From NCBI GenBank assembly GCA_025964625.1, contig JAOPYL010000141.1, forward strand, positions 1 through 37,182: a stretch of 37,182 nucleotides of DNA, given 5' to 3'. Source of the DNA: Actinoallomurus sp. GTDB lineage: Bacteria > Actinomycetota > Actinomycetes > Streptosporangiales > Streptosporangiaceae. The notes beneath the pieces were generated by a model. That model was not told where the DNA came from, ran no database searches, and saw nothing but the letters and a program-made list of their open reading frames with translations. Positions within the stretch are counted from its first letter, which is position 1. Every line of letters starts with the position of its first letter. Both the position numbers and the translations under genes were made by a program. This document shows positions 10,669-30,924 of this stretch, in pieces.

Positions 10669-12685
10669 GCGTCTCCTTCGATTCGACATCCTGTTCGGCA
10701 CCGTACGGACGGCGTACGGACCCGGGTGCGCGGGGCTCGGGCCGGCCCTTGAGCCGGTCGGACGAGGCGAGCTGCCACGGCACACTCGTCACCATCACGC
10801 CGGGCTGGAACAGCAGGCGGGTCTTGAGCCGCAACGCGCTCTGGTTGTGCAGGAGATGCTCCCACCAGTGGCCGACGACATACTCCGGCAGGAACACGGT
10901 CACGACGTCGCGCGGACTGCGCCGCCGGATACTCTTAACATATTCCAGGATGGGCCGGGTGATTTCCCGGTACGGCGAGTCGAGGATCTTGAGCGGGACG
11001 GGCAGCTCCCGCACGTCCCACTCCTCCTGCAGCTTCTGCACCTCCTCGGGGTCGACGGCGACGGTGACCGCCTCGAGCGTGGAGGGACGGGTGGCCCGCG
11101 CGTAGGCGAGCGCCCGCATCGTCGGCTTGTGGATCTTGGAGACGAGGACGATGGCGTGGTTGCGGGGGGGCAGTGCGACGTCCTCCCCGCTGACGGCGAG
11201 CTCGGCGGCCACCCGGTCGTAATGCCGCCGGATGCTCCTCATCATCAGGAAGAGCACGCTCATGGCGACACAGGCGATCCACGCGCCGAGCAGGAACTTC
11301 GTGACGAGGACGACGACAAGGACGATGCCGGTGACGACCGCGCCGAAGGTGTTGATCGCCCGGGAGGTCTTCATCCGGCGGCGCTTGGCCGGATCGGTCT
11401 CGGCCCTGAGCAGGCGGTTCCAGTGCCGCACCATGCCGATCTGACTGATCGTGAACGACACGAAGACACCGACGATGTAGAGCTGGATCAGCGACGTGAC
11501 CGAGGCGTTGTAGGCGTAGATCAGCAGGCCCGCCATGGTCCCCAGGATGATGATCCCGTTGCTGAACGCCAGCCGGTCGCCGCGGGTGTGCAGCTGGCGC
11601 GGGAGGTAGCGGTTCTGCGCCAGGACCGCGCCCAGCACCGGGAAGCCGTTGAAGGCGGTGTTGGCGGCGAGGACGAGGATCAGCGCGGTCATCACCGTGA
11701 CGTAGGCGAAGCCTGGGGTGAAGTTGCTGAAGACCGTGCGGGCCACCTGGGCGATGACCGGGTTGGGGTTGGTGACCTCCTTGCCGGCCGAGTTGTACAG
11801 GTGGGTGTTCATCGCCGAGTCGGCGAACTTGGCCTTGGTGATGTACGCCAGCGCGACGATGCCGCCGAACATCGAGGCCGCGACGACGCCGAGGAGCAGG
11901 AGGGTGGTCGCGGCGTTCTGGCCCTTGGGCTTGCGGAACGCCGGGACCCCGTTGCTGATCGCCTCGACGCCGGTGAGCGCCGCACAGCCGGAGGAGAAGG
12001 CGCGCAGCAGCAGGAAGACGAGCGCGAAGCCGCTGACGCCGACTTCGGGGCCCTTGAGCGTCAGGTGCGCGGTCTCGGCGTGAAGGTGGGCGCCGAACGA
12101 GATGCGGGTCAGGCCCCACAGGAGCATGACGAAGACGCCCAACATGAACAGGTAGGTCGGGATCGCGAACGCGACTCCCGACTCCCGGATTCCCCGGAGG
12201 TTCATGATCGTCAGGATGGCGACGACCACGATCGCCGCCAGCGCCAGGTGCGGCTGGAGGAACGGCATGAGGGCGGCGAGGTTCTGGATGCCGGAGGAGA
12301 CGGACACCGCGACCGTCAGGACGTAGTCGACCAGCAGGGCGCTGGCCACGACGATGCCCGCATTGCTGCCCAGGTTGGTGGTGGCGACCTCGAAGTCGCC
12401 GCCGCCGCTGGTGTAGGCGCGGACGTTCTGGCGGTACGACGCAACGACCGTGAGCAGGATCACGATGACCGCACCGCCCACCCAGGGCGTGAAGTGGTAG
12501 GTCGCCAGCCCGGCGAGGCCGAGGGCGATCAGGATCTCCTGCGGTGCGTATGCCACCGACGACAGTGCGTCGCTGGCAAAGACCGGAAGTGCGATCGTCT
12601 TGGGGAGGGTTTGCTCGTGCGCCTGGGCGCTCCGGAGCGCCCGGCCGAGCAGGAGCCTCTTGACGAGGTCGGGAGCCTTCGACAC
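10646..12685 (-). CDS. KimA-like APC potassium importer (copy 1)
   Basis: A 679-residue membrane protein with about 12 helices and a C-terminal cytosolic domain of roughly 170 residues, as in B. subtilis KimA (YdaO), a proton-coupled K+ importer inhibited by c-di-AMP. Residues matching the K+ and proton ligands known for KimA are all present: D39 and Y46 in ASDALSSVAY, and D120, Y121, T124 and S128 in DYVLTVAVS. The spacing equals KimA's D36, Y43, D117, T121 and S125 (numbering from memory). It starts at GTG 12685 with no clear ribosome binding site. It is divergent from ceoB across a 170-base region that holds a strong structured element. It corresponds to Rv2690c. Older annotation would call it an amino acid permease; K+ is inferred from these residues and the context. 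Confidence 0.82.
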   Translation of the reverse strand: MSKAPDLVKRLLLGRALRSAQAHEQTLPKTIALPVFASDALSSVAYAPQEILIALGLAGLATYHFTPWVGGAVIVILLTVVASYRQNVRAYTSGGGDFEVATTNLGSNAGIVVASALLVDYVLTVAVSVSSGIQNLAALMPFLQPHLALAAIVVVAILTIMNLRGIRESGVAFAIPTYLFMLGVFVMLLWGLTRISFGAHLHAETAHLTLKGPEVGVSGFALVFLLLRAFSSGCAALTGVEAISNGVPAFRKPKGQNAATTLLLLGVVAASMFGGIVALAYITKAKFADSAMNTHLYNSAGKEVTNPNPVIAQVARTVFSNFTPGFAYVTVMTALILVLAANTAFNGFPVLGAVLAQNRYLPRQLHTRGDRLAFSNGIIILGTMAGLLIYAYNASVTSLIQLYIVGVFVSFTISQIGMVRHWNRLLRAETDPAKRRRMKTSRAINTFGAVVTGIVLVVVLVTKFLLGAWIACVAMSVLFLMMRSIRRHYDRVAAELAVSGEDVALPPRNHAIVLVSKIHKPTMRALAYARATRPSTLEAVTVAVDPEEVQKLQEEWDVRELPVPLKILDSPYREITRPILEYVKSIRRRSPRDVVTVFLPEYVVGHWWEHLLHNQSALRLKTRLLFQPGVMVTSVPWQLASSDRLKGRPEPRAPGSVRRPYGAEQDVESKETRAAGGIV

Positions 12686-15437: not shown

Positions 15438-17426
15438 TTACGCTGCTCCCGAACGCACCCTCCGGCGGGCCGCGAACCCTGCCTCCTCCGGGCGCCGGGC
15501 CAGGGCCGCCTCCGCCGATCCCAGCTGCCACGGGACACTCGTGACCATCACGCCGGGCCGGAAGAGCAGCCGCGCCTTCAGCCGGAAGGCGCTCTGGTTG
15601 TGCAGCAGATGCTCCCACCAGCGCCCGACGACGTACTCCGGGATGAAGACGCAGACGACGTCGCGTGGGCTCCGCACGCGGATCCGCCCGACGTAGTCGA
15701 GCACCGGCCCGGTGATGTCGCGGTACGGCGAGTCGAGGATCGTCAACGGCACCGGAAGATCGCGTTCGCCCCACTCTCGCTGCAGCGTCTGCGCCTCCTC
15801 CTCGCTGGTCGCGACGCTGAGGGCGGTGAGCGTGCTCGGCCGGGTCGCCCGCGCGAAGGCCAGTGCCCGCAGGGTGGGCGTGTGCAGCCTGGAGACCAGG
15901 ACGACGGCATGGATGCGGCTGGGCAGCGAGACGTCGTCTTCGCTCGCGGCCAGCTCGGCGTCCACCCGCCGGTAGTGCCGGTGGATCGCCTTCATCATCA
16001 GGAACACCACGGGCATGGTCACCACGACGATCCAGGCTCCGTGCACGAACTTGGTGATCAACACGATGACCAGGACGAGGCCGGTGAGCACGGCACCCAC
16101 GAAGTTGATCGCACGCGACCGGTGGATGGAACGCCGGCGTACCGGCTCGGAGACCCGGCGCAGCTCCGCCCCCCAGTGCTTCACCATCCCGGCCTGGCTC
16201 AGGGTGAACGACACGAACACGCCGATGATGTACAGCTGGATGAGCCGGGTGGTGCTCGCGTGGAACGCCCAGATGAGCGCGCCGGCCAGCAGCGACAGGA
16301 TCACGATGCCGTTGCTGAAGACGAGCCGGTCGCCGCGCCGGGCGAACTGCCGCGGCAGGTACCCGTCGCCGCCCAGGATCGAGGCCAGGATCGGGAACCC
16401 GTTGAACGCGGTGTTGGCGGCCAGCACCAGGATCGCGGCGGTGAACGCCTGCACGAGGAAGAAGAGGACCGAGCCGTGGCCGAACACCGCGGCGCCGAGC
16501 TGGGCGATGACGGTCTTCTGCTCATAGCCCTTCGGGGCGCCGATGAGCTGGGCGGGGTCATTGGCGATGTGCACGTGCACGGCGAACGCGAGCGCGGTGA
16601 TGCCGCCGAACATGGTGACTGCCAGCAGGCCCATGATCGCCAGGGTGGTGGCGGCGTTCCTGCTCTTCGGCCGCTTGAAGTTGGGCACGCCGTTGCTGAC
16701 CGCCTCGACGCCGGTCAGCGCCGTGCAGCCCTGGGCGAAGGCGCGGAGGGCGAGCAGCACCGCGGCCGCCCCTGCCGTGCTGTGAGCGGCGTGGATCCCC
16801 AGCGACGCCGACTCGGCGACCGGGGGGTGCCCGGACAGCATGCGGAACACCCCGACGCCCACCATGAGGAAGACGCTCGCGACGAAGCCGTACGTGGGGA
16901 TCGCGAACGCCGTGCCGGACTCCTTGACGCCGCGCAGGTTCATCACGGCGATCAGGATGATGAACGCGAGCGCGATGCCGACCGCGTGCGAGCTCAGGGC
17001 GGGCACGGCGGAGACGATGTTGGCCACCCCCGCGGCGACGGACACCGCCACCGTCATGACGTAGTCGATGAGCAGCGCGCTGGCCGCGATGAGCGAGGCG
17101 TTCTCACCCAGGTTGGCACGGCTCACCGCGTACGCGCCGCCGCCGTTGGGGTAGGCGTGGCAGGTCTGCCGGTACGACGCGGTGACCACGAGCAGCAGGA
17201 AGACGACGCCCGCGCCCACCCACCAGGACAGGTAGAACATCGCCAGGCCGCCGAGGCTCAGCGCGAGGAGGATCTCCTCCGTGGCGTACGCGACGGAGGA
17301 GAGGGGGTCGCTGCAGAAGACGGGCAGGGCCAGCTTCTTGGGCAGCAGAGTCTCGCCCATCTGCCCCGTCCGCAGTGGGCGGCCGACAAGGACACGCTTG
17401 GGCATCTGGATGACGGCGTGCTTCAC
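15438..17426 (-). CDS. KimA-like APC potassium importer (copy 2)
   Basis: A 662-residue paralogue of copy 1, with the same C-terminal cytosolic domain. Presumed ligands are intact: D40 and Y47 in CSDPLSSVAY, D121, Y122, T125 and S129 in DYVMTVAVS. GTG 17426 is preferred because the N-terminus then aligns with copy 1; TTG 17438 is also open. The gene stands as its own unit, 119 bases downstream of the kdpE stop. A triple YTARCG box lies 52-90 bases upstream of its start and is the same as that before the kdp operon. That makes control by KdpE the likely reading. Its end is 53 bases from the OB-fold gene. An amino acid substrate cannot be excluded by sequence alone. Confidence 0.82.
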   Translation of the reverse strand: MKHAVIQMPKRVLVGRPLRTGQMGETLLPKKLALPVFCSDPLSSVAYATEEILLALSLGGLAMFYLSWWVGAGVVFLLLVVTASYRQTCHAYPNGGGAYAVSRANLGENASLIAASALLIDYVMTVAVSVAAGVANIVSAVPALSSHAVGIALAFIILIAVMNLRGVKESGTAFAIPTYGFVASVFLMVGVGVFRMLSGHPPVAESASLGIHAAHSTAGAAAVLLALRAFAQGCTALTGVEAVSNGVPNFKRPKSRNAATTLAIMGLLAVTMFGGITALAFAVHVHIANDPAQLIGAPKGYEQKTVIAQLGAAVFGHGSVLFFLVQAFTAAILVLAANTAFNGFPILASILGGDGYLPRQFARRGDRLVFSNGIVILSLLAGALIWAFHASTTRLIQLYIIGVFVSFTLSQAGMVKHWGAELRRVSEPVRRRSIHRSRAINFVGAVLTGLVLVIVLITKFVHGAWIVVVTMPVVFLMMKAIHRHYRRVDAELAASEDDVSLPSRIHAVVLVSRLHTPTLRALAFARATRPSTLTALSVATSEEEAQTLQREWGERDLPVPLTILDSPYRDITGPVLDYVGRIRVRSPRDVVCVFIPEYVVGRWWEHLLHNQSAFRLKARLLFRPGVMVTSVPWQLGSAEAALARRPEEAGFAARRRVRSGAA

Positions 17427-17478
17427 AATGGCCAGCAAACCGGTCAGACGCGGTGTAAAGAGCCATTTCTACGCGGCC

Positions 17479-17516
17479 CTAACGCCTCCGGCCGGCTTCT
17501 TAACGGGTTACTAACG
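17479..17516. promoter_or_regulatory. Triple-hexamer box upstream of kimA2 (candidate KdpE operator)
   Basis: Hexamers CTAACG (17479), TTAACG (17500) and CTAACG (17511) lie on the plus strand with start-to-start distances of 21 and 11 bases. The same three-part box with the same two distances occurs at 30887-30924 ahead of the kdp operon. An 11-base direct-repeat spacing fits dimer binding by an OmpR/PhoB-type regulator such as KdpE, encoded just upstream. Confidence 0.6.
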
Positions 17517-17545: not shown

Positions 17546-18220
17546 TCAGCGCTCGAACCGGTAGCCCATGCCCGGCTCGGTGATCAGATGCCTGGGCCGC
17601 GAGGGGTCCTTCTCGAGCTTGCGCCGCAGCTGTGCGAGGTAGACGCGGAGATAGCCGGTCTCGTTGGCGTAGGAGGGGCCCCACACCTCACGGAGCAGCT
17701 GCTGCTGGCTGACCAGCCGCCCGGCGTTGCGTACCAGCACCTCGAGCACGTGCCACTCGGTCGGCGTCAGGCGCACGTCCGCGCCGCCGCGCGTCGCCTT
17801 CTTCGCCGCCAGGTCGACCGTGAACGCCTCGGTGACGACCACGGCGTCCTCCTCCGGCGGGGCGGCCCGCCGTACGGCCGCGCGCAGGCGGGCCAGCAGC
17901 TCGTCCATGCCGAACGGCTTGGTGACGTAGTCGTCGGCGCCGACGTCGAGCGTCTCGACCTTCTCCTCCGACGCGTGGCGCGCGGTCAGCACGATGATCG
18001 GCACGCTCGTCCAGCCCCGCAGTCCCTCGATCACCTCGGCGCCCTCCATGTCGGGCAGGCCGAGATCGAGCACGATCACGTCGGGATGGCGGCGGGCGGC
18101 CAGGTCGAGTGCGGTACGGCCGTCCGGCGCGGCGTCCACCTCATAGCCGCGGGCGCGCAGGTTGATGCGCAGCGCCCGGACGATCTGCGGTTCGTCATCG
18201 ACGACGAGTACCCGTGTCAC
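17546..18220 (-). CDS. kdpE: KdpE response regulator
   Basis: A 224-residue OmpR/PhoB-type regulator. The receiver domain (residues 1-118) has acidic D8/D9, the phosphorylation site D52 in VLDLGLPD, and TKPF. The winged-helix DNA-binding domain includes RLTPTEWHVLEVLVRNAGRLVSQQQLL, followed by ETGYLRVYLAQLRRKLE and the C-terminal TEPGMGYRFE, as in KdpE of many bacteria. GTG 18220 overlaps the kdpD1 stop by four bases (GTGA), with GGAGG three to four bases before it. It is the only response regulator in the window, although two KdpD kinases are present. It would activate kdpFABC under K+ limitation or osmotic stress. Confidence 0.95.
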   Translation of the reverse strand: MTRVLVVDDEPQIVRALRINLRARGYEVDAAPDGRTALDLAARRHPDVIVLDLGLPDMEGAEVIEGLRGWTSVPIIVLTARHASEEKVETLDVGADDYVTKPFGMDELLARLRAAVRRAAPPEEDAVVVTEAFTVDLAAKKATRGGADVRLTPTEWHVLEVLVRNAGRLVSQQQLLREVWGPSYANETGYLRVYLAQLRRKLEKDPSRPRHLITEPGMGYRFER

Positions 18221-20760
18221 GTTGCCTCCTCGGCCGGTGGCTCGGCGGACTCCGGCGTACGGCCCATATCGGCTTTTTCCGTCGGCAGCGAAAAGATCAT
18301 CGTCAGCCCGCCGCCGGCGGTGTCCTCGGCGTGCAGGTCACCGCCGATGGCCTCGGCGAAGCCTCGCGCTACCGCGAGGCCGAGCCCGATGCCGTCGCCG
18401 CGGGGCCGGTCGCCGAGCCGCTGGAAGGGCTCGAACATCCGGCTCTTCGCGGAGTCCGGCACACCGGGCCCCCGGTCGGACACCCGCAGCTCGATCATGT
18501 CTCCGCGCCGGCTCGCGGTCATCCGGACGGGCTCTGACCCGCCGTGCCGTACGGCGTTCTCGACGACGTTGGCCAGCGACCGCTCCAGCAGGCCCGGGTC
18601 GGCGACGATCGGCGGCAGGTCCTCCGGCACGTCGATCTCGACCCGCTCGGCCGGAACGTTTGCCAGCGACGGCTGGATGACCTCGTCGAGCGTCACCGGC
18701 CGGGCGAGCGGATTGACGACGCCCGTCTGCAGGCGGCTCATGTCGAGCAGGTTGGCCACCAGGCGGTCCAGCCGGTCGGCCGACTCCTCGATGGTGGCGA
18801 GCAGCTCGGCCTCGTCGGCGGGGTCCCACCGCACGTCGCCGGAGCGCAGACTGCTGACGCTCGCCTTGATGGAGGCGAGCGGGGTGCGCAGATCATGGGA
18901 GACGGCCGCGAGCAGGGCCGTACGGATCTTGTTGCCTTCGGCGAGCCGCCGGGCCTCCTTGGCCTGCTCCGCGAGTCGCTGGCGGTCCAGCGCCGCCGCC
19001 GCCTGGTAGGCGAAGGCCGCCAGCACACGGCGATCGGCCGCGGGCAGTACCCGGCCGCACAGTGCCAGCGTCAGGGTCTCACTGACCTGCACGCGGACGT
19101 CCGCCTCCTCCGGCCGTCCGCAAGCATCCGGACCCGCCCAGGCCACCCGCGCCCAGATGTCGCCCGAGCGCTCCAGCAGCGCCACCGAGGACAGCCCGAA
19201 GGTCTCCCGCACCCGTTCGAGCAGCTCCGGCAGGGCGTCCTCGCCACGCAACACGCTGGTGGCGAGCAGGCTCAGTGTGGTCGCCTCCGAGCGCGCCCGC
19301 GCTGCCTGGGAGCTGCGGCGGGCGGCGATGTCGACCACGGTCGCCACGGCGACCGCCACCGCCACGAAGACCAGCAGTGCGAAGGCGTTCTCCAGCTCGG
19401 CGACCGTGAAGGTGTGCAGCGGCGGCGTGAAGAACCAGTTGACGAGCAGGAAACCGGCGACCGCCGCCACGATCGCGGGCCACAGGCCGCCCATCAGCGC
19501 CACTGCCACGGTGAGCGCGAGGAAGAACAACAGCTCGGTGGGGAGCCCGAAGCGCCCGCCGCGGATCGACAGGAGCCCGGTGAGGATCGGCGGCGCGAGC
19601 AGGGCGAGCAGCCAGCCGGCCATGCGCCTCCGGCGGCCCAGCGACGTCGGGCCCACGGCCGCCAGACCACGGCCCTTGCCCGCGTAGTCATGCGTCACGA
19701 TGTGCACGTCCACGTCGCCGGACCGGTCGGCGACGGTCGCCCCCACGCCGGGGCCGGAGATGTACTGCCATCGGCGGCGGCGACTCGATCCGAGCACGAT
19801 CTGTGTGGCGTTGACCCCCTGGGCGAACTCCATGAGTGCCTTGGGCACGTCGTCGCCGGTCACCTGGTGGTAGGAGCCGCCCAGGCTTTCCACGAGGGCG
19901 CGCTGGCGGGCGAGCGCCTCCGGCGAGCCGTCGGCGAGACCGGCGGCCTTGGCGACGTGCACCGCCACCAGGTCCCCGTGGCCTGTCCGGGCGGCGATCC
20001 GCGCGGCGCGCCGGATCAGCGTGTCACCCTCGGGGCCACCGGTCAGCGCCACGACGATCCGCTCGCGCGCCTCCCAGGTCTCGATGATGCCCTTCTCGTC
20101 GCGATAGCGGGCGAGGGCGTCGTCGACACGGTCGGCCACCCAGAGCAGGGCCAGTTCCCGTAGCGCGGTGAGGTTGCCGACGCGGAAGTAGTCGGACAAC
20201 GCCGCGTCGATCCGCTCCCGCGGGTACACGTTGCCGTGCGCCAGGCGGCGGCGGAGCGACTCCGGCGACATGTCGACCAGTTCGACCTGCTCGGCTCGCC
20301 GGACGACCTCGTCGGGCACCGTCTCCCGCGGGCGCACCCCGGTGATGCGCTCGACCACGTCGTTGAGCGATTCCAGGTGCTGGACGTCGACCGTCGAGAC
20401 CACGTCGATGCCCGCGCCGAGGAACTCCTCGACGTCCTGCCAGCGCTTCTCGTTCCGCGACCCGGGGGCGTTGGTGTGCGCCAGCTCGTCGACGAGCGCG
20501 ACCTCGGGAGCGCGCTCGAGCACGGCATCGACGTCCATCTCGGTCAGCACCCGGCCGGCGCGGACGACCTGCCGCCGCGGCACGGCCTCGAGCCCGTCGA
20601 GCAGCGCCGTGGCACGGGCGCGGCCGTAGGTCTCGGCGAAGGCCACGACGATATCCGTACCCCGCTCCAGGCGCCGGATCGCCTCGCCGAGCATCGCGTA
20701 CGTCTTGCCGACCCCGGGCGCCACGCCGAAATAGATCTTGAGCCTGCCTCGCGTCGCTAT
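18217..20760 (-). CDS. kdpD: KdpD sensor histidine kinase (copy 1), probable ATA start
   Basis: A full-length KdpD of about 847 residues: N-terminal KdpD domain with Walker A APGVGKT, a Usp-like domain (residues ~250-370, LGSSRRRRW), four membrane helices (~395-500), a GAF-like region, a HisKA box with H622 in SHDLRTPL, and an HATPase domain (NVVENAVRHG, DRGPGVP, GIGLGLA). Homology to copy 2 (MARGRLRVYLGAAPG) requires the start to be near RGRLKIYFGVAPG. In this frame no ATG, GTG or TTG exists there before a stop; an ATA at 20758-20760 sits at the expected place, five to eight bases after GGGAGGGGGTGAG. The first ordinary start, GTG 20724, would remove the first strand. It is coupled to kdpE. 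A hairpin separates it from the kimA3 end. Confidence 0.88.
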   Translation of the reverse strand: MATRGRLKIYFGVAPGVGKTYAMLGEAIRRLERGTDIVVAFAETYGRARATALLDGLEAVPRRQVVRAGRVLTEMDVDAVLERAPEVALVDELAHTNAPGSRNEKRWQDVEEFLGAGIDVVSTVDVQHLESLNDVVERITGVRPRETVPDEVVRRAEQVELVDMSPESLRRRLAHGNVYPRERIDAALSDYFRVGNLTALRELALLWVADRVDDALARYRDEKGIIETWEARERIVVALTGGPEGDTLIRRAARIAARTGHGDLVAVHVAKAAGLADGSPEALARQRALVESLGGSYHQVTGDDVPKALMEFAQGVNATQIVLGSSRRRRWQYISGPGVGATVADRSGDVDVHIVTHDYAGKGRGLAAVGPTSLGRRRRMAGWLLALLAPPILTGLLSIRGGRFGLPTELLFFLALTVAVALMGGLWPAIVAAVAGFLLVNWFFTPPLHTFTVAELENAFALLVFVAVAVAVATVVDIAARRSSQAARARSEATTLSLLATSVLRGEDALPELLERVRETFGLSSVALLERSGDIWARVAWAGPDACGRPEEADVRVQVSETLTLALCGRVLPAADRRVLAAFAYQAAAALDRQRLAEQAKEARRLAEGNKIRTALLAAVSHDLRTPLASIKASVSSLRSGDVRWDPADEAELLATIEESADRLDRLVANLLDMSRLQTGVVNPLARPVTLDEVIQPSLANVPAERVEIDVPEDLPPIVADPGLLERSLANVVENAVRHGGSEPVRMTASRRGDMIELRVSDRGPGVPDSAKSRMFEPFQRLGDRPRGDGIGLGLAVARGFAEAIGGDLHAEDTAGGGLTMIFSLPTEKADMGRTPESAEPPAEEAT

Positions 20761-20785: not shown

Positions 20786-20810
20786 GTGACTCTGAGGACC
20801 CCAGAGTCAC
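20786..20810 (-). terminator. Hairpin at the kimA3 stop
   Basis: GTGACTCTG (20786-20794) pairs with CAGAGTCAC (20802-20810), a perfect 9-base stem with a 7-base loop. It includes the kimA3 stop codon and precedes the kdpD1 ribosome binding site. It may attenuate or end the kdp transcript before kdpDE, or protect the upstream message. Confidence 0.45.
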
Positions 20811-22801
20811 GCCGCCGCCCCGGGTCCAGTTCCGTACGCCCGGAGCACGCGGTCTTCGAGGCGGAAGCGCAGCCGGCAGACGACCGCGTCGGTGTCGCGG
20901 CGGAGCGCGTGGGCGAGCACGGCGCCACGCTGGTTCTGCAGGACCCGCTGCCACACGTGGGCCGGCTCCACCTCGGGGATGAGCACGAAGACGTGCGGCT
21001 CGTCGACGCCGCGGACGTACTGCACGATCGGCTCGACGAGGCGGCGGTGCGCGTCGCTGACCAGGGCGAGGTTGACGCCCGGGGCCCAGCGCTCCCACGC
21101 GTCGATGAACCGCGCGGCCTCCTCCGGCTCGTCCGGGTGGGTCACCCGCAGCGCGACGACCCGGTCCCCGAGGGACAGGGCGGCCGACATGGCCTCCTTC
21201 GTGAGCCGGTTGACGCCGCCGATGGGGACGATCACGAGTGCCTGGCGCGGACGCGGTCGTACCGGGATCCGGCCCAGTTCCAGCCGCTCCCCGATCCGAT
21301 CGTACGCGCGGTTGATCCTGGACATCAGCAGGACGATCAGCGGCATCGTGACCACGATCAGCCAGCCCCCCTCGGGGAACTTCGTGGCGGTCACGATGAC
21401 CGCGGCGAGGCCGGTGAGCAGGGCACCGAAGCCGTTGAGGGCGGCGCGCGGCCGCCAGCCGTACGGGCGCTCGGTCCACCAGTGCCGCACCAGCCCCGCC
21501 TGCGACAGGGTGAAGCCGACGAACACGCCGATCGCGAACAGCGGCACCAGCGTGTTCATGTCACCGCCGGTGCCGATGAGCAGCAGCGCGCCGGTCGCGG
21601 CGAGGAAGTAGATGCCGTAGCGGTGGACCTGCCGCTCGGCGCGCAGTCCGAACAGATGCGGCAGGTTGTTGTCCTTGGCCAGCAGCTGGGCGAGCACCGG
21701 CATGCCGCCGAACGAGGTGTTGGCGGCCAGGGCGAGCAGAATGACCGTGGAGAACTGCATGAGGTAGTAGCCGAGTCCATGGCCCAGGGAGCCGGCCGTG
21801 ACCTGCGACAGGATCGTGATGCCGCGGACCGGGCGGATGTGGAACTTGACGATCAGGATGCCGATGCCGATCAGCATGAGGCCGAGCAGCGCACCGAGCG
21901 CCACCTCCGCGCGCTGGGCCCGTTCCACCCGGGGTTTCCGGAAGGACGGCACCGCGTTGGCGATCGCCTCGACCCCGGTGAGCGCCGCGCACCCGTTGGC
22001 GAAGGCACGCAGTAGCAGGAGCACACCGACGGTCCCGAGGCTGTGCGCCTGCACGGCAGGGTGCGCCACGACCGGCCGGTCGCGGAAGAGGCCGACCACG
22101 ACCACGGCCAGGACGGAGAGCACGAAGACCAGCGTGGGTGCGATGAAGATCCGGGCGCTGCGCGCGATGCCACGCAGGTTGACGGCGGTGATCAAGACGA
22201 GCACGCCGAGGCACAGCCAGATCGTGTACGGGAGCAACCCCGGGAAGGTGGACGTAAGCGCGGCCACACCCGCCGCGATGGACACCGCGACGTTGAGCAC
22301 GTAATCGACCACAAGTGACGCGGCCGCGACGAGGGACGCACGCCGGCCCAGATACGCCTTTGCCACGCCGTACGCCCCGCCGCCCTCCGGAAAGGCCGCG
22401 ATCACCTGGCGGTAGGACAGCGTGAGCACGCCCAGCAGCCCGGCGATGGCCAGGGTGACCGGCAGGGTGTAGCCGAGCGTCGTACCGCCCGCGGCGGCCA
22501 GGACGATGACGATGGCCTCCGGGCCGTACGCCACCGAGGCCATGGCGTCGAGGGACAGCGCGGCGAGACCGCCGATGACGGACAGCCGGTCACGCTCGTG
22601 GTGGCCGTCGTCGGAGGGTGCGTGCTTGCGCCCGGCAACCCACCGCGCGAACGGAACAGACATGCGGAGGACCTTCTGATACTGGGGAGCGATGGCCCAT
22701 ACAGGGCCCGTAGGCGGGCGCCGGGAACGACCCGCGTCGTTCACCGGCTTGCGACGCGGCAGTGCCGGGCACCGTCGCGCCCCCAACGGGGCATGCGTCA
22801 C
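20807..22801 (-). CDS. KimA-like APC permease (copy 3), kdp-operon linked
   Basis: A 664-residue relative of copies 1 and 2, more diverged, with a 46-residue basic N-terminal extension if started at GTG 22801. That start overlaps the kdpD2 stop (GTGA) with GGAAGG about eight bases upstream; ATG 22663 (MSVPFARW) is the alternative. D85 and Y92 (LDAMASVAY) and D166, Y167 and S174 match the presumed KimA ligands. The threonine of DYVLT, however, is asparagine here (N170 in DYVLNVAVS). The gene lies between the two kdpD genes on the same strand, so it is probably expressed with kdpFABC. It may be a K+ importer with altered affinity or a different cation or amino acid carrier. Confidence 0.78.
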   Translation of the reverse strand: MTHAPLGARRCPALPRRKPVNDAGRSRRPPTGPVWAIAPQYQKVLRMSVPFARWVAGRKHAPSDDGHHERDRLSVIGGLAALSLDAMASVAYGPEAIVIVLAAAGGTTLGYTLPVTLAIAGLLGVLTLSYRQVIAAFPEGGGAYGVAKAYLGRRASLVAAASLVVDYVLNVAVSIAAGVAALTSTFPGLLPYTIWLCLGVLVLITAVNLRGIARSARIFIAPTLVFVLSVLAVVVVGLFRDRPVVAHPAVQAHSLGTVGVLLLLRAFANGCAALTGVEAIANAVPSFRKPRVERAQRAEVALGALLGLMLIGIGILIVKFHIRPVRGITILSQVTAGSLGHGLGYYLMQFSTVILLALAANTSFGGMPVLAQLLAKDNNLPHLFGLRAERQVHRYGIYFLAATGALLLIGTGGDMNTLVPLFAIGVFVGFTLSQAGLVRHWWTERPYGWRPRAALNGFGALLTGLAAVIVTATKFPEGGWLIVVTMPLIVLLMSRINRAYDRIGERLELGRIPVRPRPRQALVIVPIGGVNRLTKEAMSAALSLGDRVVALRVTHPDEPEEAARFIDAWERWAPGVNLALVSDAHRRLVEPIVQYVRGVDEPHVFVLIPEVEPAHVWQRVLQNQRGAVLAHALRRDTDAVVCRLRFRLEDRVLRAYGTGPGAAA

Positions 22802-25389
22802 CGGCCAGACCTTCCCCGGACGGAGTCGACATGGGAGGTGAGCATCGGGTCGGCCATGTCCGGCGTGTACACGGGCAGCGTCACGATCATGGTCAGGCCG
22901 CCACCGGGCGTCTCCTCGGGCTGGAGGGTGCCGCCCATGGCCTCGACCAGCCCGCGCGACAGCGCCAGGCCGAGCCCGACCCCGGTGTCGTTGTCACGGT
23001 CTCCAAGCCGCTGGAAGGGCAGGAACACGCGGTCACGGTCGGCCCGCGGAATCCCCGGCCCGCGGTCGATGATCCGCACCTCGACGTGGTCGGCGTGCGA
23101 GCTGGCGGTCACCAGTGTGGGGTCCTTCGGCGAGCCGTAGCGGAGAGCGTTGGACATCAGGTTGACCAGGACCCGCACCAGCAGCGAAGGGTCGGCGATC
23201 ACATCCGGCAGACCGTCGGGAACCTGGACGCGTACGGCGGAACCGGCCGGGCCGAGGTGGTCGATCGCGGGCGACACCACCTCCTCGACGGCGACCGGCT
23301 GGGCGGCCACGCCCAGTGCGCCCGCTTGCAGGCGGCTCATGTCCAGCAGGTTGGCGACCAACCGGTCCAGCCGGTCGAGCGACTCGTCCGCGGTGGCGAG
23401 CAGCTCCTCCCGCTCCACCTGGGTCCAGGTGACCTCGCCGGTGCGCAGGCTCTCTACGGCCGCCTTGGCCGACGACAGTGGTGAGCGCAGGTCGTGGCTG
23501 ACCGCGGTGAGCAGGGCGGTCCGCATGCGATCCGCCTCGGCCAGCGGGCGGGCCTGCTCGGCCTCCTCGGCCAGGCGGTGCTGCCGCAACGCCAGCGCGG
23601 TCTGCGCCGCGAACGCCTCCAGCACGCGCTGGTCGGCTGCCGAAGGTGTAGGCCCGCGGAGCACGAGCGCCAGGTCGTCGTCGATGGAGACGTCGGCGTC
23701 GCCCTCATCCGGGCTGCAGCAGGGTTCACCCCCGACGTTCGCGACGATCCGCCAGCGTTCCGGGTCGGCCTGCCGACCGGGCGTCAGGGGGGTGTCCGGA
23801 CGCCTCTCCAGCAGCGTCGCGGAGGTGAGCCCGAACGTCACGCGGAGCCGTTCGAGCAGATCGCCGGGGGTGCTCTCACCCCGCAGCACACTGCCCGCCA
23901 GATTGGACAGCAGCTCGGCGTCGGCACTGGCACGGGAGCCTTGGCGGGTACGCCTGGCGGCCATGTCCACCACCACGCTGACCGACACGGCCACCAGGAT
24001 GTACGCGGTCAGCGCGAGGACGTTCTCCCACTCGTCGATCGTGAACTGGTAGATCGGCGGGGTGAAGTAGTAGTTCAGCAGCAGCGAGCCGGTGACGGCG
24101 GCGAACAGCGCCGGGGCCAGCCCGCCGACCAGCGCCACCCCGACCACCGCCACGAGGAAGAGCAGGATCTCGCTGGGCAGCGAGAGCTGGCCGCGCAGGT
24201 TGGCGAGCAGCAGGGTCAGCGCCGGGAGACCTGCGGCGGCCAGCCCGAACGCCAGGCCCTGGCGGCCCCGGGTCAGCCCGCCGGCCCGCCCGGACCTCCG
24301 CCGGCCCTGGCTGACCGCCTCATGCGTGACCATGTGCACGTCGATCGGCCCGGACATCGCGGTCGCGGTCACGCCCACCCCGCGGGAGAAGAGCTGGGCG
24401 AAGCGTCCTCGCCGCGATGCGCCGAGGACCAGCTGGGTCGCGTTGACGCCACGGGCGAAGTCCAGCAGCGCCTGCGGGATGTCGTCGCCGACGACCTGGT
24501 GGTACGTGCCGCCGAGGCTCTCCACGAGGTCCCGCTGGCGCGCCAGGGCCGCGGGGTTGGCGCCGGTCAGCCCGTCGCCGACGGTCACGTGCACGGCGAA
24601 CAGGTCGGAGCCCTTCGCACGGTCGGCGATCCGCGCCGCCCGCCGGATGAGCGTGTCGCCCTCACGGCCGGCGGTGAGTGCGACGACGACGCGCTCCCGC
24701 GCCTCCCAGGTCTTACTGATGCGGTGGTCGGCGCGGTAATGATCGAGCTGGTCGTCGACCTTGTCGGCCAGCCACAGCAGAGCCAGCTCGCGCAGCGCGA
24801 TCAGGTTGCCGACGCGGAAGTAGTTGGACAGCGCCGCGTCGATCTTCTCGGGCTGGTAGATGTTGCCGTGCGCCATCCGGCGGCGCAGCGCCTCGGGGGC
24901 CATGTCCACCAGCTCCACCTGCTCCGCGCGCCGCACGACCTCATCGGGCACGGTCTCCCGCTGGGCCACCCCGGTGATCTGCTCGACGACGTCGTTGACC
25001 GAGTCGAGATGCTGGATGTTCACGGTGGTGATCACATCGATGCCGGCGTCGAGGACGTCCTCGACGTCGCGCCACCGCTTCTCATACCGGGAACCGGGGA
25101 TGTTGGTGTGGGCCAGCTCGTCGATCAGCACGACCGCCGGCCGCCGCGCGATCACCGCGTCCGCGTCCAGCTCGGTGAAGCTGGTCCCCCGGTACTCGAT
25201 GGTCTTACGGGAGACCGTCTCCAGCCCTTCGAGCAGCTCGATGGTGCGCGGGCGGCCGTGGCACTCCACGTACCCGATGACCACGTCGGTGCCGCGGGAG
25301 AGACGGCGGTGACCCTCACACAGCATCGCGTAGGTCTTGCCGACGCCTGGCGCTGCTCCCAGATACACGCGCAGTCGGCCACGCGCCAT
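22798..25389 (-). CDS. kdpD: KdpD sensor histidine kinase (copy 2)
   Basis: A complete 863-residue KdpD: GRLRVYLGAAPGVGKT (Walker A), the KdpD domain to about residue 215, a Usp-like domain (~250-370, LGASRRGRF), four membrane helices (~400-500, LLLNYYFTPPIYQF), a GAF-like segment, H632 in SHDLRSPL, N box NLMSNALRYG, DRGPGIP and GVGLGLALSRG. ATG 25389 has GGAGGTGA six bases upstream. It follows kdpC by 16 bases and overlaps kimA3. No response regulator is directly attached, so it either shares the KdpE beside copy 1 or has another partner. The copies are clearly paralogous but differ throughout, so the duplication is not recent or one was acquired. Confidence 0.92.
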   Translation of the reverse strand: MARGRLRVYLGAAPGVGKTYAMLCEGHRRLSRGTDVVIGYVECHGRPRTIELLEGLETVSRKTIEYRGTSFTELDADAVIARRPAVVLIDELAHTNIPGSRYEKRWRDVEDVLDAGIDVITTVNIQHLDSVNDVVEQITGVAQRETVPDEVVRRAEQVELVDMAPEALRRRMAHGNIYQPEKIDAALSNYFRVGNLIALRELALLWLADKVDDQLDHYRADHRISKTWEARERVVVALTAGREGDTLIRRAARIADRAKGSDLFAVHVTVGDGLTGANPAALARQRDLVESLGGTYHQVVGDDIPQALLDFARGVNATQLVLGASRRGRFAQLFSRGVGVTATAMSGPIDVHMVTHEAVSQGRRRSGRAGGLTRGRQGLAFGLAAAGLPALTLLLANLRGQLSLPSEILLFLVAVVGVALVGGLAPALFAAVTGSLLLNYYFTPPIYQFTIDEWENVLALTAYILVAVSVSVVVDMAARRTRQGSRASADAELLSNLAGSVLRGESTPGDLLERLRVTFGLTSATLLERRPDTPLTPGRQADPERWRIVANVGGEPCCSPDEGDADVSIDDDLALVLRGPTPSAADQRVLEAFAAQTALALRQHRLAEEAEQARPLAEADRMRTALLTAVSHDLRSPLSSAKAAVESLRTGEVTWTQVEREELLATADESLDRLDRLVANLLDMSRLQAGALGVAAQPVAVEEVVSPAIDHLGPAGSAVRVQVPDGLPDVIADPSLLVRVLVNLMSNALRYGSPKDPTLVTASSHADHVEVRIIDRGPGIPRADRDRVFLPFQRLGDRDNDTGVGLGLALSRGLVEAMGGTLQPEETPGGGLTMIVTLPVYTPDMADPMLTSHVDSVRGRSGR

Positions 25390-25405: not shown

Positions 25406-26326
25406 TCACGCATGGAACGGGAACTTCCTGTCCAGTTCGATGTTGAGTTGCAGGACGTTGACCCGGGGGGCGCCGAGGAAGCCGAGCACCCGGCCGTCCT
25501 CGTTGTCCTTGATCGCCTGAAGCACCTGCTCCTCCGGGACACCGCGGGTCTTGGCGATCCGCGGCGCCTGGAGCCGCGCGTACTCCGGCGAGATGTGTGG
25601 GTCGAGGCCGCTGCCACTCGCGGTCACCGCGTCCGCGGGCACCTTCGGCCTGGCCGGCGCATTGCCGCGGATCGGCACGATCGCGCCCTTCGAATAGTCC
25701 TCACCGTACTTCGCACACTCGACGGTGACACCCCCGTAGGTGGCGATGAACGGCTTGGCCACCACGCCGCACTGCTCGTTGAGGCTGACGACGCGGGTCG
25801 GCCTGGCCACGTGCCCGGCCCTGTCACGGGGGCCGATGACGGACAGCACCGTCCCCACACCGCCAGGGGTGCAGAACGGACGGGCTCCGCTCACGCCCTC
25901 CAGCTCGCCGACCGCCCTGCTGCGGGAGCAGACCTGTGTGAGCAGGCTGTCCCTGGCCGTCTTCGCGGTGATCTCCGCGGCCTTGTTCGCCGGGTTCTTC
26001 GGCAGCGTGTCGACGATGTCTTCTGGGCCGAGGTTGCTCGCGCCGGTCGCCGTCGGGTCGTAGCCGGTCCCGGCGTTGGAGGGGCGGCTCTGGAAGTACT
26101 GCTTGAGCGGGTTGCCGTTCTTGTCGGTGAAGGCCTGGCCGATGATCCGGCTGCCGACCGTACGGCCGCCGCTCGTGACCATCGAGCCCTCGGCCTGGCT
26201 GTGCAGGCCGGGGACGAAGGTGACCGCCCAGACGGCGAGTGGGTACGCCACTCCGGTGATCACGGTCAGGACGAGCAGGGCGCGGACCGCGGCCAGGTGC
26301 TGGCGGATCCAGGTTGGCAGGCGCAT
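25406..26326 (-). CDS. kdpC: KdpC, potassium-transporting ATPase subunit, with a long insert
   Basis: The single-span subunit that stabilises KdpB on KdpA. Residues ~12-32 form the membrane anchor (AVRALLVLTVITGVAYPL), followed by the conserved GSRIIGQAF, YFQSRPS and, at the end, VTASGSGLDPHISPEYARLQ. Length is 306 residues against about 190-200 in most bacteria. The extra ~95 residues lie between KTARDSLL (~120) and NAPARPKVPADAV (~225) and contain four cysteines (QVCSR, PFCTP, EQCGV, VECAK). On the outer face these could form two disulfides. The insert looks like an actinobacterial variant rather than an error, because frame and codon use are unbroken. It follows kdpB by one base. Confidence 0.93.
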   Translation of the reverse strand: MRLPTWIRQHLAAVRALLVLTVITGVAYPLAVWAVTFVPGLHSQAEGSMVTSGGRTVGSRIIGQAFTDKNGNPLKQYFQSRPSNAGTGYDPTATGASNLGPEDIVDTLPKNPANKAAEITAKTARDSLLTQVCSRSRAVGELEGVSGARPFCTPGGVGTVLSVIGPRDRAGHVARPTRVVSLNEQCGVVAKPFIATYGGVTVECAKYGEDYSKGAIVPIRGNAPARPKVPADAVTASGSGLDPHISPEYARLQAPRIAKTRGVPEEQVLQAIKDNEDGRVLGFLGAPRVNVLQLNIELDRKFPFHA

Positions 26327-26327
26327 G

Positions 26328-28543
<2,216 letters not shown>

Positions 28544-28544
<1 letters not shown>

Positions 28545-30205
28545 CAGTGGATTCCTTCGGCCAACGGCCCGAGCGCGAGCGCCGGGAGGAACGTGAGGGC
28601 GACGAGGATCACCGTGACACCGGCGACCATGCCGATGAACTGGGGACGGTGGGTCGGCAGCGTGCCCTCCGACGCAGGCGTCTGCCCCTGCCTGGCGAGT
28701 GACCCGGCCAGCCCCAGCACGAAGATCATGGGCAGGAACCGGCCGGTCGCCATCGCCAGGCCGAGGGCGGTGTCGTACCAGGCGGTGTTCACGGTGATCC
28801 CGGCGAACGCCGACCCGTTGTTGTTGGACGCCGAGGTGAACGCGTACAGGACCTCGGACAGGCCGTGCGGCCCGCGGTTCAGCATCGCGGCACGCTCGCC
28901 CGGCAGGGCCATCGCGAAGGCGGTGCCGACGAGCACGCAGATCGGCGTGATCAGGAAGTACATCGACGCGAACTTGATCTCGCGGCTGCTGATCTTCTTC
29001 CCGAGGTACTCGGGCGTGCGGCCCACCATGAGGCCGGCCACGAACACCGTGATCACGGCGAGGATCAGCATGCCGTACAGGCCCGATCCGGTGCCGCCGG
29101 GTGCGACCTCGCCCAGCATCATGTTGAACATCGTCATCATGCCGCCGAGGCTCGTGTAGGAGTCGTGGAAGGAGTTCACGGCGCCGGTGGAGGTCAGGGT
29201 GGTCGCGTCGGCGAACGTCGCCGAGTTCGGCACCCCGAAGCGCGTCTCGACGCCCTCCATGGCGGACCCGATCGCCGTTGGAACGGTGCCGTGGTGGGCG
29301 AGCTGGAAGAAGGAGATCAGTGTGACGCTGACGACGGCCAGGGTCGCCATCACCGCGACGATCGCGTAGCCCTGCTTGTTGTTGCCGACCATCCGGCCGA
29401 ACGTCCGGGGCAGGCTGAAGCTGATCACCAGCAGCAGGAAGATCTCCAGCCAGTTCGTCCACACGGTCGGGTTCTCGAACGGATGAGCGGAGTTGGCGTT
29501 GTAGAAGCCGCCGCCGTTGGTCCCGAGCTCCTTGATGGCCTCCTGACTCGCGACCGGCCCGCCGGTGATGGCCTGCTTGGCACCGGCGAGGGTCTGGATC
29601 GTGTGCGGGTCGTGGAAGTTCTGCACGGCCCCGCCGATGACCAGCACGATCGCGGCGACGAAGGCGAACGGGAGCAGGATCCGCAGTACGCAGCGCACGA
29701 GGTCGACCCAGAAGTTGCCGAGCAGTTCGGTCGTCTTTCGCGCGAAGCCGCGCACGAGGACGATCGCAACGGCGATGCCCACGGCGGCGGACACGAAGTT
29801 CTGCACGGCGAGCCCGGCCATCTGCACGAGATGGCCCATGGTCGACTCACCGGAGTAGGACTGCCAGTTGGTGTTGGTGACGAAACTGATGGCCGTGTTC
29901 CAGGCCTGGTGCGTGACGACCGGCTTGAACCCCAGGCTCAGCATCAGGTGGTTCTGCAGCCGCTGGAAGCCGTACAGGAACAGCACCGAGACCATCGAGA
30001 AGGCCAGCACGCTGCGGGCATAGACGGCCCACGTCTGCTCGGTGTCCGGCCTGGCGCCGATCAGGCGGTAGATCCCGCGCTCGACGCGCGAGTGTTTCGT
30101 ACCGGTGAAGACCCGGTACATGTAGTCGCCCAGCGGCCGGTAGGCCAGGGCCAGAGCGAGCACGAGCGATCCGGTGAACAGGATTCCCGCAGCCGTCGCA
30201 CTCAT
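28544..30205 (-). CDS. kdpA: KdpA, potassium channel-like subunit
   Basis: The K+-selective membrane subunit, 553 residues with about ten helices. It shows the repeated selectivity-filter organisation of the SKT superfamily, best seen at [19 protein letters not shown], and [20 protein letters not shown] and NNNGSAFAG in the other repeats. ATG 30205 directly follows the kdpF stop, with GGAG about eight bases upstream. Its end shares a base with kdpB. Sequence is complete, so the complex should be functional for high-affinity K+ uptake. Confidence 0.97.
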
Positions 30206-30359: not shown

Positions 30360-30443
30360 TCACAGGCGTTCGACCGCCTTCACGACCAGGCCGAACAGGG
30401 CGAAGACCGCCACTGTCAGCAGGATGTATGCCAGGTCAGCCAT
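30360..30443 (-). CDS. Small single-helix membrane protein upstream of kdpF
   Basis: A 27-residue peptide, MADLAYILLTVAVFALFGLV followed by VKAVERL, with one membrane helix and a short basic-acidic tail. Start ATG 30443 overlaps the end of the upstream gene by eight bases and has GAGGGA about eight bases before it. Peptides of this kind precede kdpF in several actinobacterial kdp operons. It resembles KdpF in size and topology and may be a second small subunit of the pump (inference). Confidence 0.7.
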   Translation of the reverse strand: MADLAYILLTVAVFALFGLVVKAVERL

Positions 30444-30738
30444 CTCTCGATCCCTCTGTTCGATGTGCGGAAGGCCGCTTGCCCTGAGCCGCGCCGCGCC
30501 GGCGCGGTACCTCGTACGCGGGGCGCGACATCCCCGGTGTTTCAATCAGCTCGCGGGTGGTCTGGTGGAAATCCACCCACAGCGGATCCGCATGCCGATG
30601 GCAGCGCCTGGCCTCGATCGCGGCGTGCACCGAGCCTGAGACCAGCCCGCCGAGGAGGAGCACCACGGCACGGCCTGCGTTGGCAGCCCCCGTGATGTCG
30701 ATGTAGCCGTAGGCGTGCACGTCAAACCCGTGACGCAC
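30436..30738 (-). CDS. Unrecognised small protein leading the kdp operon
   Basis: A 100-residue protein from GTG 30738 that I do not recognise. It has one hydrophobic segment (AGRAVVLLLGGLVSGSVHAAI) and a conserved-looking DPLWVDFHQTTRELIE. Third-position GC is strong across the frame, so it is coding. It overlaps the next small gene by eight bases, which supports one operon. The frame reads on upstream as LRLDSYGRRRLVV without a start before a stop. Meanwhile, the best ribosome site (GAGGAGG, with ATG at 30791) is in another frame, giving an 81-residue reading that ends at 30546. A single-base deletion near 30785 may have separated the start from the body. GGCGGAGG nine bases before GTG 30738 could still serve. 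Confidence 0.55.
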   Translation of the reverse strand: MRHGFDVHAYGYIDITGAANAGRAVVLLLGGLVSGSVHAAIEARRCHRHADPLWVDFHQTTRELIETPGMSRPAYEVPRRRGAAQGKRPSAHRTEGSRDG

Positions 30739-30886
30739 GACCAGGCGCCTCCGCCCGTAAGAGTCCAGGCGGAGGATTCCAGGCGCGTCATCGCATCCTC
30801 CTCGTGCGTGCTACAAGACCCCGCTCTGGGGGCACGCCAGGAGTAAACGCCCGGAATAGATGGATTCGACCAGTGTTGACGGTCCC

Positions 30887-30924
30887 TTAGCGCCGCTCTC
30901 GCCGTCCTTAACGAATCTCTAACG
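30887..30924. promoter_or_regulatory. Triple-hexamer box upstream of the kdp operon (candidate KdpE operator)
   Basis: TTAGCG (30887), TTAACG (30908) and CTAACG (30919) on the plus strand, spaced 21 and 11 bases start to start, exactly as upstream of kimA2. It lies about 95 bases before ATG 30791 and 150 before GTG 30738, a reasonable activator distance for a leadered operon. The region 30792-30948 is otherwise non-coding and relatively AT-rich on the operon side (AATCCATCTATTCC could hold the -10). Confidence 0.6.

Follow-up and report, generated by a model that had tools for sequence, protein, structure and literature searches.

A four-half-site operator ahead of the kdp operon and kimA2 in Actinoallomurus and its probable reading by KdpE

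The kdp operon and the neighbouring importer gene kimA2 of Actinoallomurus sp. are each preceded by a 49-bp operator composed of four half-sites. The two boxes are considered, with a probability of roughly 0.8, to be the operators of one K+-limitation regulon, to which KdpE would bind as two head-to-tail dimers and so activate both importers. KdpE is known chiefly for its control of kdpFABC. The initial annotation of this DNA had proposed a regulon joining the Kdp ATPase with a KimA-type importer, and this reading was right in substance and is supported here as a regulon predicted from sequence comparison.

Operator anatomy and the surrounding gene cluster

The window (the whole stretch of DNA analysed, 37,182 nucleotides) is contig C339 of a 5.84-Mb genome that is 95% complete. 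The two hexamer triplets reported initially, at 30887/30908/30919 and at 17479/17500/17511, were confirmed with the spacings claimed. The description as a three-hexamer box was incomplete, since each triplet belongs to an operator of four half-sites: the fourth kdp half-site lies 11 bp to the left of the triplet, and the fourth kimA2 half-site is degenerate in the window species and reads CTAACG in the 7 sister genomes (Table 1). Read on the plus strand, the half-sites are YTRRCG, with offsets of 0, 11, 32 and 43 and a total of 49 bp; the hexamers as reported point away from the genes, and on the gene strand (minus) the repeat is CGTTAR/CGYTAR. The operator on the coding strand is CGTTAR-N5-CGTTAR-N15-CGYTAR-N5-CGTYAR, that is, two tandem pairs with an 11-bp period within each pair and with the pairs placed three helical turns (32 bp) apart. 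The half-sites are 6-bp direct repeats with the 11-bp period of OmpR/PhoB-type sites, and this period, initially taken to suit an OmpR-type dimer, was found at both boxes. A pattern search of the window with up to 2 mismatches returned the same two sites only, as had been stated for the triple copy, and no site in 100 dinucleotide shuffles; a chance origin of the boxes was rejected on the basis of these shuffles and of the full conservation in the genus.

Both boxes lie upstream of genes for K+ uptake on the minus strand, as claimed: the first upstream of leader genes and kdpA, the second between kdpE and kimA2, so that kdpE adjoins it. The minus-strand order is kdpA, kdpB, kdpC, kdpD1, kimA1, kdpD2, kdpE and kimA2. 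KimA1 and KimA2 are homologous over nearly their whole length to the KimA of known structure (6s3k), and K+ transport is predicted for both. The GTG start of kimA2 was set by conservation, and the homology of KdpB to the sister genomes starts at residue 307 of its open reading frame. KdpE reached 252.8 bits against the PRK10529 model, below the curated cut-off of 325 bits. For the 27-aa peptide, which has no Pfam family match, tblastn at E up to 1 gave a match in 29 of the 33 kdp loci that came from the pattern scan described below.

Several further features of the cluster were recorded. The leader ORF (MTRLE..., 30546-30791) before the 27-aa peptide is shortened and frame-shifted relative to the sister genomes, in which it is longer and membrane-bound in appearance, and proteins resembling it by eye stand behind boxes in loci L239 and L248. 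kdpD1 and kimA1 overlap directly at 22798-22801. A further response regulator gene, kdpE1, is located between kdpD1 and kimA1 in the sister genomes G002, G005, G006 and G007 and is missing in the window genome, G001, G003 and G004; G001 is also without a kimA1 match.

Table 1. Coordinates of the operators, candidate promoter elements and genes in the window.
Feature	Position	Strand	Evidence or remark
kdp operator	30876..30924	-	Four half-sites ahead of the minus-strand kdp operon; plus strand TTGACG 30876, TTAGCG 30887, TTAACG 30908, CTAACG 30919
kimA2 operator	17468..17516	-	CTAACG 17479, TTAACG 17500, CTAACG 17511, degenerate TCTACG 17468
TTTACT, candidate -10 element of kdp	30842..30847	-	First base 29 nt downstream of box
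TTTGCT, candidate -10 element of kimA2	17434..17439	-	First base 29 nt downstream of box
27-aa membrane peptide gene (MADLAYILL...), ahead of kdpF	30360..30443	-	tblastn; conservation
kdpA	28544..30205	-	TIGR00680 above cut-off; PF03814
kdpB	26328..28544	-	E1-E2_ATPase and HAD; start inferred by homology within longer open frame
kdpC	25406..26326	-	TIGR00681 above cut-off
kdpD1, sensor kinase	22798..25389	-	Domain/family model matches
kimA1, second KimA-type importer inside kdp cluster	20807..22801	-	PDB 6s3k E 4.4e-116; Pfam PF13520
kdpD2, sensor kinase	18217..20724	-	KdpD, DUF4118, HisKA, HATPase_c and Usp domains
kdpE (kdpE2 type), response regulator	17546..18220	-	PRK10529 KdpE E 2.4e-75; Response_reg and Trans_reg_C
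kimA2, KimA-type K+ importer	15438..17426	-	PDB 6s3k KimA E 1.7e-127 (longer ORF 15438-17438); Pfam PF13520
kimA3, third KimA paralog	10715-12670		58% to KimA2; no box in 8/8 genomes

Conservation and genomic distribution of the box

The sister-species comparison proposed together with the box was run, and the box was kept ahead of the kdp operon and ahead of kimA2 in 8/8 genus genomes each (the window genome and 7 sisters); the half-site scores did not fall below 21 of 24, a value seen at the kimA2 box in G004. Within the genus, the half-site columns were identical at 0.94 (kdp) and 0.90 (kimA2), against 0.49 and 0.58 for the respective spacers; these half-site values were reached by 0 of 20,000 random 24-column sets, a comparison that is only descriptive because the set was picked with the motif known. 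The kimA3 promoter was without the box in all the genus genomes (0/8), and a box at every kimA was rejected on this ground. kdpE2 is kept in 8/8 genus genomes, while kdpE1 is missing in 4/8, the window's included, all of which keep both boxes. In G007, where kdpD2-kdpE2 stands apart from the kdp operon, a separate box with three good half-sites (E 2.4e-5) precedes kdpD2.

For the genome searches, a first sequence-only model was built from 17 boxes, both window boxes among them. At E<=1 it gave two matches in the own 5.84-Mb genome, both in the window (150 of 2,559 first-look candidates scored), with E-values of 1.9e-11 for the kdp box and 2.8e-10 for the kimA2 box, both boxes being in the training set and the E-values being rough by the tool's own statement. 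In the sister genomes, the model gave the other known boxes, one new box (that of G007) and 15 weaker matches (E 0.004-0.9). Since the model searches scored just part of the first-look candidates, sites may be missed. At E<=0.01, 38 of 250 family genomes had a match and 212 were without one at this threshold. The classification of family loci covered 22 loci outside the genus together with the second boxes of G008, G078 and G118. Among the 22 loci, 12 precede the 27-aa peptide gene and kdpA, and in another 2 the box is followed by a protein that by eye resembles the leader ORF of kdp. A KdpD-like kinase comes after the box in 7 loci (in L139, L142 and L143 together with a KimA that is divergent), and the remaining locus is unexplained. 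Among 13 kdp regions outside the genus, 8 were without a site at the half-site threshold.

The exact four-half-site pattern was scanned in 84,980 species and gave 53 stretches, of which 41 are at kdp, kimA or kdpDE loci (34 kdp, 5 kimA, 1 kdpDE and 1 reversed-box kdp locus of a Thermomicrobiales MAG). L170 was assigned to the kdp class by the leader ORF only; L159, which gave no match to kdpA, was counted as kdp on the strength of the peptide and part of kdpF, behind which come kdpE and kdpD. The remainder comprises 4 stretches at a 172-aa Streptomyces protein, 1 at a TetR-like gene (by eye) and 7 without such genes, none of these 7 in Actinomycetota and several with tandem repeats. Within Actinomycetota, 40/45 stretches are at K+ loci and 5/45 at genes without a known K+ role, and the genera among the matches include Actinomadura, Nocardia, Streptomyces, Cellulomonas, Arthrobacter, Nocardioides and Antribacter. 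Thus the box was not found to be common at unrelated genes, a result named beforehand as one that would speak against the regulon: it matched twice in its own genome and 41 times of 53 at kdp, kimA or kdpDE.

The search of the class was performed with a second model of 28 boxes at a threshold of E<=1e-4, and 46 of 393 genomes had a match while 347 were without one. Of the 29 class loci read (30 with the window's own L221, which was dropped), 25 are at kdp, kimA or kdpDE: 19 kdp, 4 kimA, 1 between KdpD-like and KimA genes and 1 before kdpD, with 4 others. L241 was counted as kdp by the 27-aa peptide alone, and 20 further matches, including the window's second box and a second, weaker box of L233 that faces kdp, were left out of this classification.

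Boxes were also observed ahead of genes without a known K+ role, namely 172-aa proteins, a TetR-like gene, a Usp gene, a PLP decarboxylase and two small membrane proteins. In the Streptomyces loci L155, L162, L171 and L191 an exact box stands directly before the 172-aa protein, and the one protein scanned had no Pfam match. Weak boxes near position 1501 precede the PLP decarboxylase in L111, L112, L113 and L249 (three genus genomes and one of another family), with a small Lrp-like gene in front of it in L111-L113 (by eye); the PLP decarboxylase is a possible extra target of the box. In L231, the box is before a Usp-domain protein. A Thermomicrobiales MAG has a perfect box at L158:3665-3713, with kdpDE on one side and kdpFA on the other, and here the orientation is reversed and like that of E. 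coli. In L133 (G220), the box is followed by the 27-aa peptide gene, kdpF and then fragments matching KdpA, KdpB and KdpE; this kdp locus is decayed or misassembled.

Boxed kimA promoters are not private to the Actinoallomurus genus. Within the same family, G008, G078 and G118 have them, with KimA at 75-76% identity and the gene order kdpD-kdpE-box-kimA; they were also found in a HGW-Actinobacteria-5 MAG (KimA 67%) and in four class genomes of four further families (KimA 40-73%). The order kdpE-box-kimA2 was present in 3/15 kdpE2-type genomes outside the genus; the other 12 were without a full box behind kdpE, and in one of these, G096, kimA2 is preceded by just one half-site pair.

These data also bear on whether the two promoters are alike only as copies of one another, without a common regulator. 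A distance of 13 kb separates the boxes, and the gene cluster that holds both has kdpD and kimA in duplicate, as a copied promoter would have it. Between the kdp and kimA2 boxes of one genome, the half-sites agreed at 79% on average and the spacers at 48%, so that the initial wording of identical boxes was too strong; promoter duplication was rejected on these diverged spacers, and the boxed kimA promoters of other genera and families also speak against it, which leaves mere copying hardly credible.

KdpE as the candidate reader and the geometry of the promoters

Judged from the sequences, KdpE is most likely the reader of both boxes and is the best candidate for this role. Its gene adjoins the second box, and it is the sole close KdpE in the genome, the next paralog being 46% identical. 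By hand count, strong boxes (E<1e-5) were present in 16 of 24 family genomes with a kdpE2-like KdpE and in 5 of 226 others, and after removal of the 9 model-building genomes in 7 of 15 against 5 of 226, an association that is confounded by shared ancestry. Of the 24 kdpE2-type family genomes, 5 were without a match at E<=0.01. In G220, a strong box is accompanied by no more than a fragment of KdpE, and in G120 the box stands next to a 63% KdpE. Alignment with E. coli KdpE shows good conservation of the C-terminal recognition region.

MtrA, PhoP and GlnR bind direct-repeat sites, and regulators of this type are global. The box may be read by such another OmpR/PhoB-type regulator instead of KdpE, and the genome has, besides KdpE, 37 weaker matches, 16 of them at E<1e-30; yet the box occurs twice in 5.84 Mb and tracks kdp, kimA and kdpDE across the class, which does not suit a global regulator. 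The half-site geometry would suit another regulator as well, being common to the whole family (accessible part of PMC3264566); against this, the mapped KdpE site of Mycobacterium smegmatis fits the box, as described in the next paragraph. We regard another regulator as unlikely, and KdpE is kept as the proposed reader.

The minimal KdpE site of M. smegmatis, CCGTAAAGAAACCATCAAGGCC, was experimentally mapped in the kdpF promoter (accessible part of PMC5401905). By our own reading it is CGTAAA-N5-CATCAA, a degenerate half-site pair. On a pair matrix made from the boxes (six loci, L155, L162, L170, L171, L189 and L191, left out), its score was reached by 273 of 100,000 actinobacterial 22-mers and by 0.05% of shuffles, and the E. 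coli KdpE site, which lies on the other strand, scored very poorly. The M. smegmatis site was then placed in 16 of the 29 class loci, and its best placement was the box pair in 15 and tied in 1, with the placements on the other strand from that on which the half-sites read YTRRCG. At least 16 of 22 letters were reached in 7 of these 16 loci and in 21 of 2,503,614 placements in other loci, the background loci including other boxed ones. With up to 2 mismatches, the 22-base site had matches in 6 of 394 class genomes.

The promoters share a fixed geometry downstream of the box. Among 70 boxed promoters, 46 have TTNNCT starting 29-30 nt past the box, and the motif occurs 8 times at other places in the 80 nt. 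By set, the counts at 29-30 were 8/8 for genus kdp, 8/8 for genus kimA2, 17/28 for scan kdp, 4/4 for other kimA, 8/18 for class kdp and 1/4 for class kimA, respectively, with 28 of the 33 kdp scan loci used (four genus-set loci and the MAG locus L187 being out) and with L233 left out of the class set. Within the genus, the motif is at 29 in 8/8 kdp promoters, and at 29 in 1/8 and at 30 in 7/8 kimA2 promoters. L244 (half-site score 17) is off register by one because its central spacer is one base longer. If TTNNCT is the -10 element, the operator would span about -89 to -41. The GTG start of kimA2 lies 7 nt past its candidate -10 element, and from this start position the kimA2 transcript is probably leaderless. 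In M. smegmatis, the kdp promoter was assigned to SigF by the authors (accessible part of PMC5401905).

KdpE might also read the box as a repressor or a dual regulator of kimA2 and kdp, and the orientation opposite to that of the E. coli activating site would agree with this. The predicted position of the operator and its fixed distance to TTNNCT suit activation, and M. smegmatis KdpE positively regulates kdpFABC from a site of the same orientation as printed (accessible part of PMC5401905); repression or dual regulation is accordingly given a very small share of the probability, smaller than that of another regulator, and activation by KdpE is preferred.

Proposed regulation and its relation to known systems

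In the proposed mechanism, KdpD would phosphorylate KdpE when K+ is short. On each box KdpE~P would form two dimers arranged head to tail, every dimer covering a pair of 6-bp half-sites with the 11-bp period, and the dimers, 32 bp (three helical turns) apart, would end beside the -35 region. With the -10-like TTNNCT 29-30 nt downstream, KdpE would recruit RNA polymerase, and the kdp operon (kdpFABC, kdpD1, kimA1, kdpD2 and kdpE, presumably one transcript) and, separately, the neighbouring kimA2 would be switched on. The ATP-driven Kdp pump and the KimA-type importers would thereby rise together, with KdpDE autoregulated.

The kdpFABC operon of M. smegmatis has a single 22-bp KdpE site and is positively regulated at low K+; its authors saw no noticeable likeness to other KdpE sites, and the accessible part of their paper gives no second KdpE target in this species (PMC5401905). 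The operator described here resembles that site in belonging to an actinobacterial KdpE, in the 11-bp distance between half-sites and in the orientation as printed, but is doubled to 49 bp and is also found before kimA. The KdpE site of E. coli kdpFABC, TTTATA-N5-TTTACA, consists of two 6-bp direct repeats with a 5-bp spacer (accessible part of PMC3264566), an arrangement shared by the half-site pairs of the window; unlike that T-rich single pair on the sense strand, the window operator contains C and G, is antisense and is doubled. Further KdpE targets are reported in S. aureus (accessible part of PMC5401905).

A c-di-AMP (ydaO) riboswitch controls kimA and ktrAB in B. subtilis and kdpFABC in B. 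thuringiensis (accessible parts of PMC11302148 and PMC6488665). There as here, one kind of device serves Kdp and KimA, in different species in the ydaO cases; that device is an RNA element, whereas the window has a DNA operator. No Rfam match, ydaO included, was obtained at the gathering thresholds anywhere in the window, and riboswitch control was rejected for this reason. For venezuelae, two KimA-like ones are among those whose experimental study is discussed (accessible part of PMC10117811). The initial annotation did not know the arrangement as a described one, and this agrees with the open PMC full texts that were searched, in which no description of a KdpE-KimA regulon was found; the accessible part of the Enterococcus paper PMC9945522 likewise contains no KdpE control of kimA. 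The Kdp-KimA operator extends a known system and founds no new one.

A wider picture is put forward tentatively, as something rather less probable than not: an Actinomycetes-wide K+-famine regulon of KdpE, with a doubled and flipped operator rigidly coupled to TTNNCT and with leaderless kimA transcripts, to which the small membrane protein family, Usp and the PLP decarboxylase may be added. If the PLP decarboxylase does belong to the regulon, polyamine replacement of K+ would be possible. The flipped orientation raises the question of how KdpE contacts RNA polymerase. If the operator is shared as proposed, a single signal would govern both an ATP-driven pump and an importer of the KimA type in actinomycetes, where the Bacillus cases use the c-di-AMP riboswitch, and the operator would predict both targets and promoter positions.
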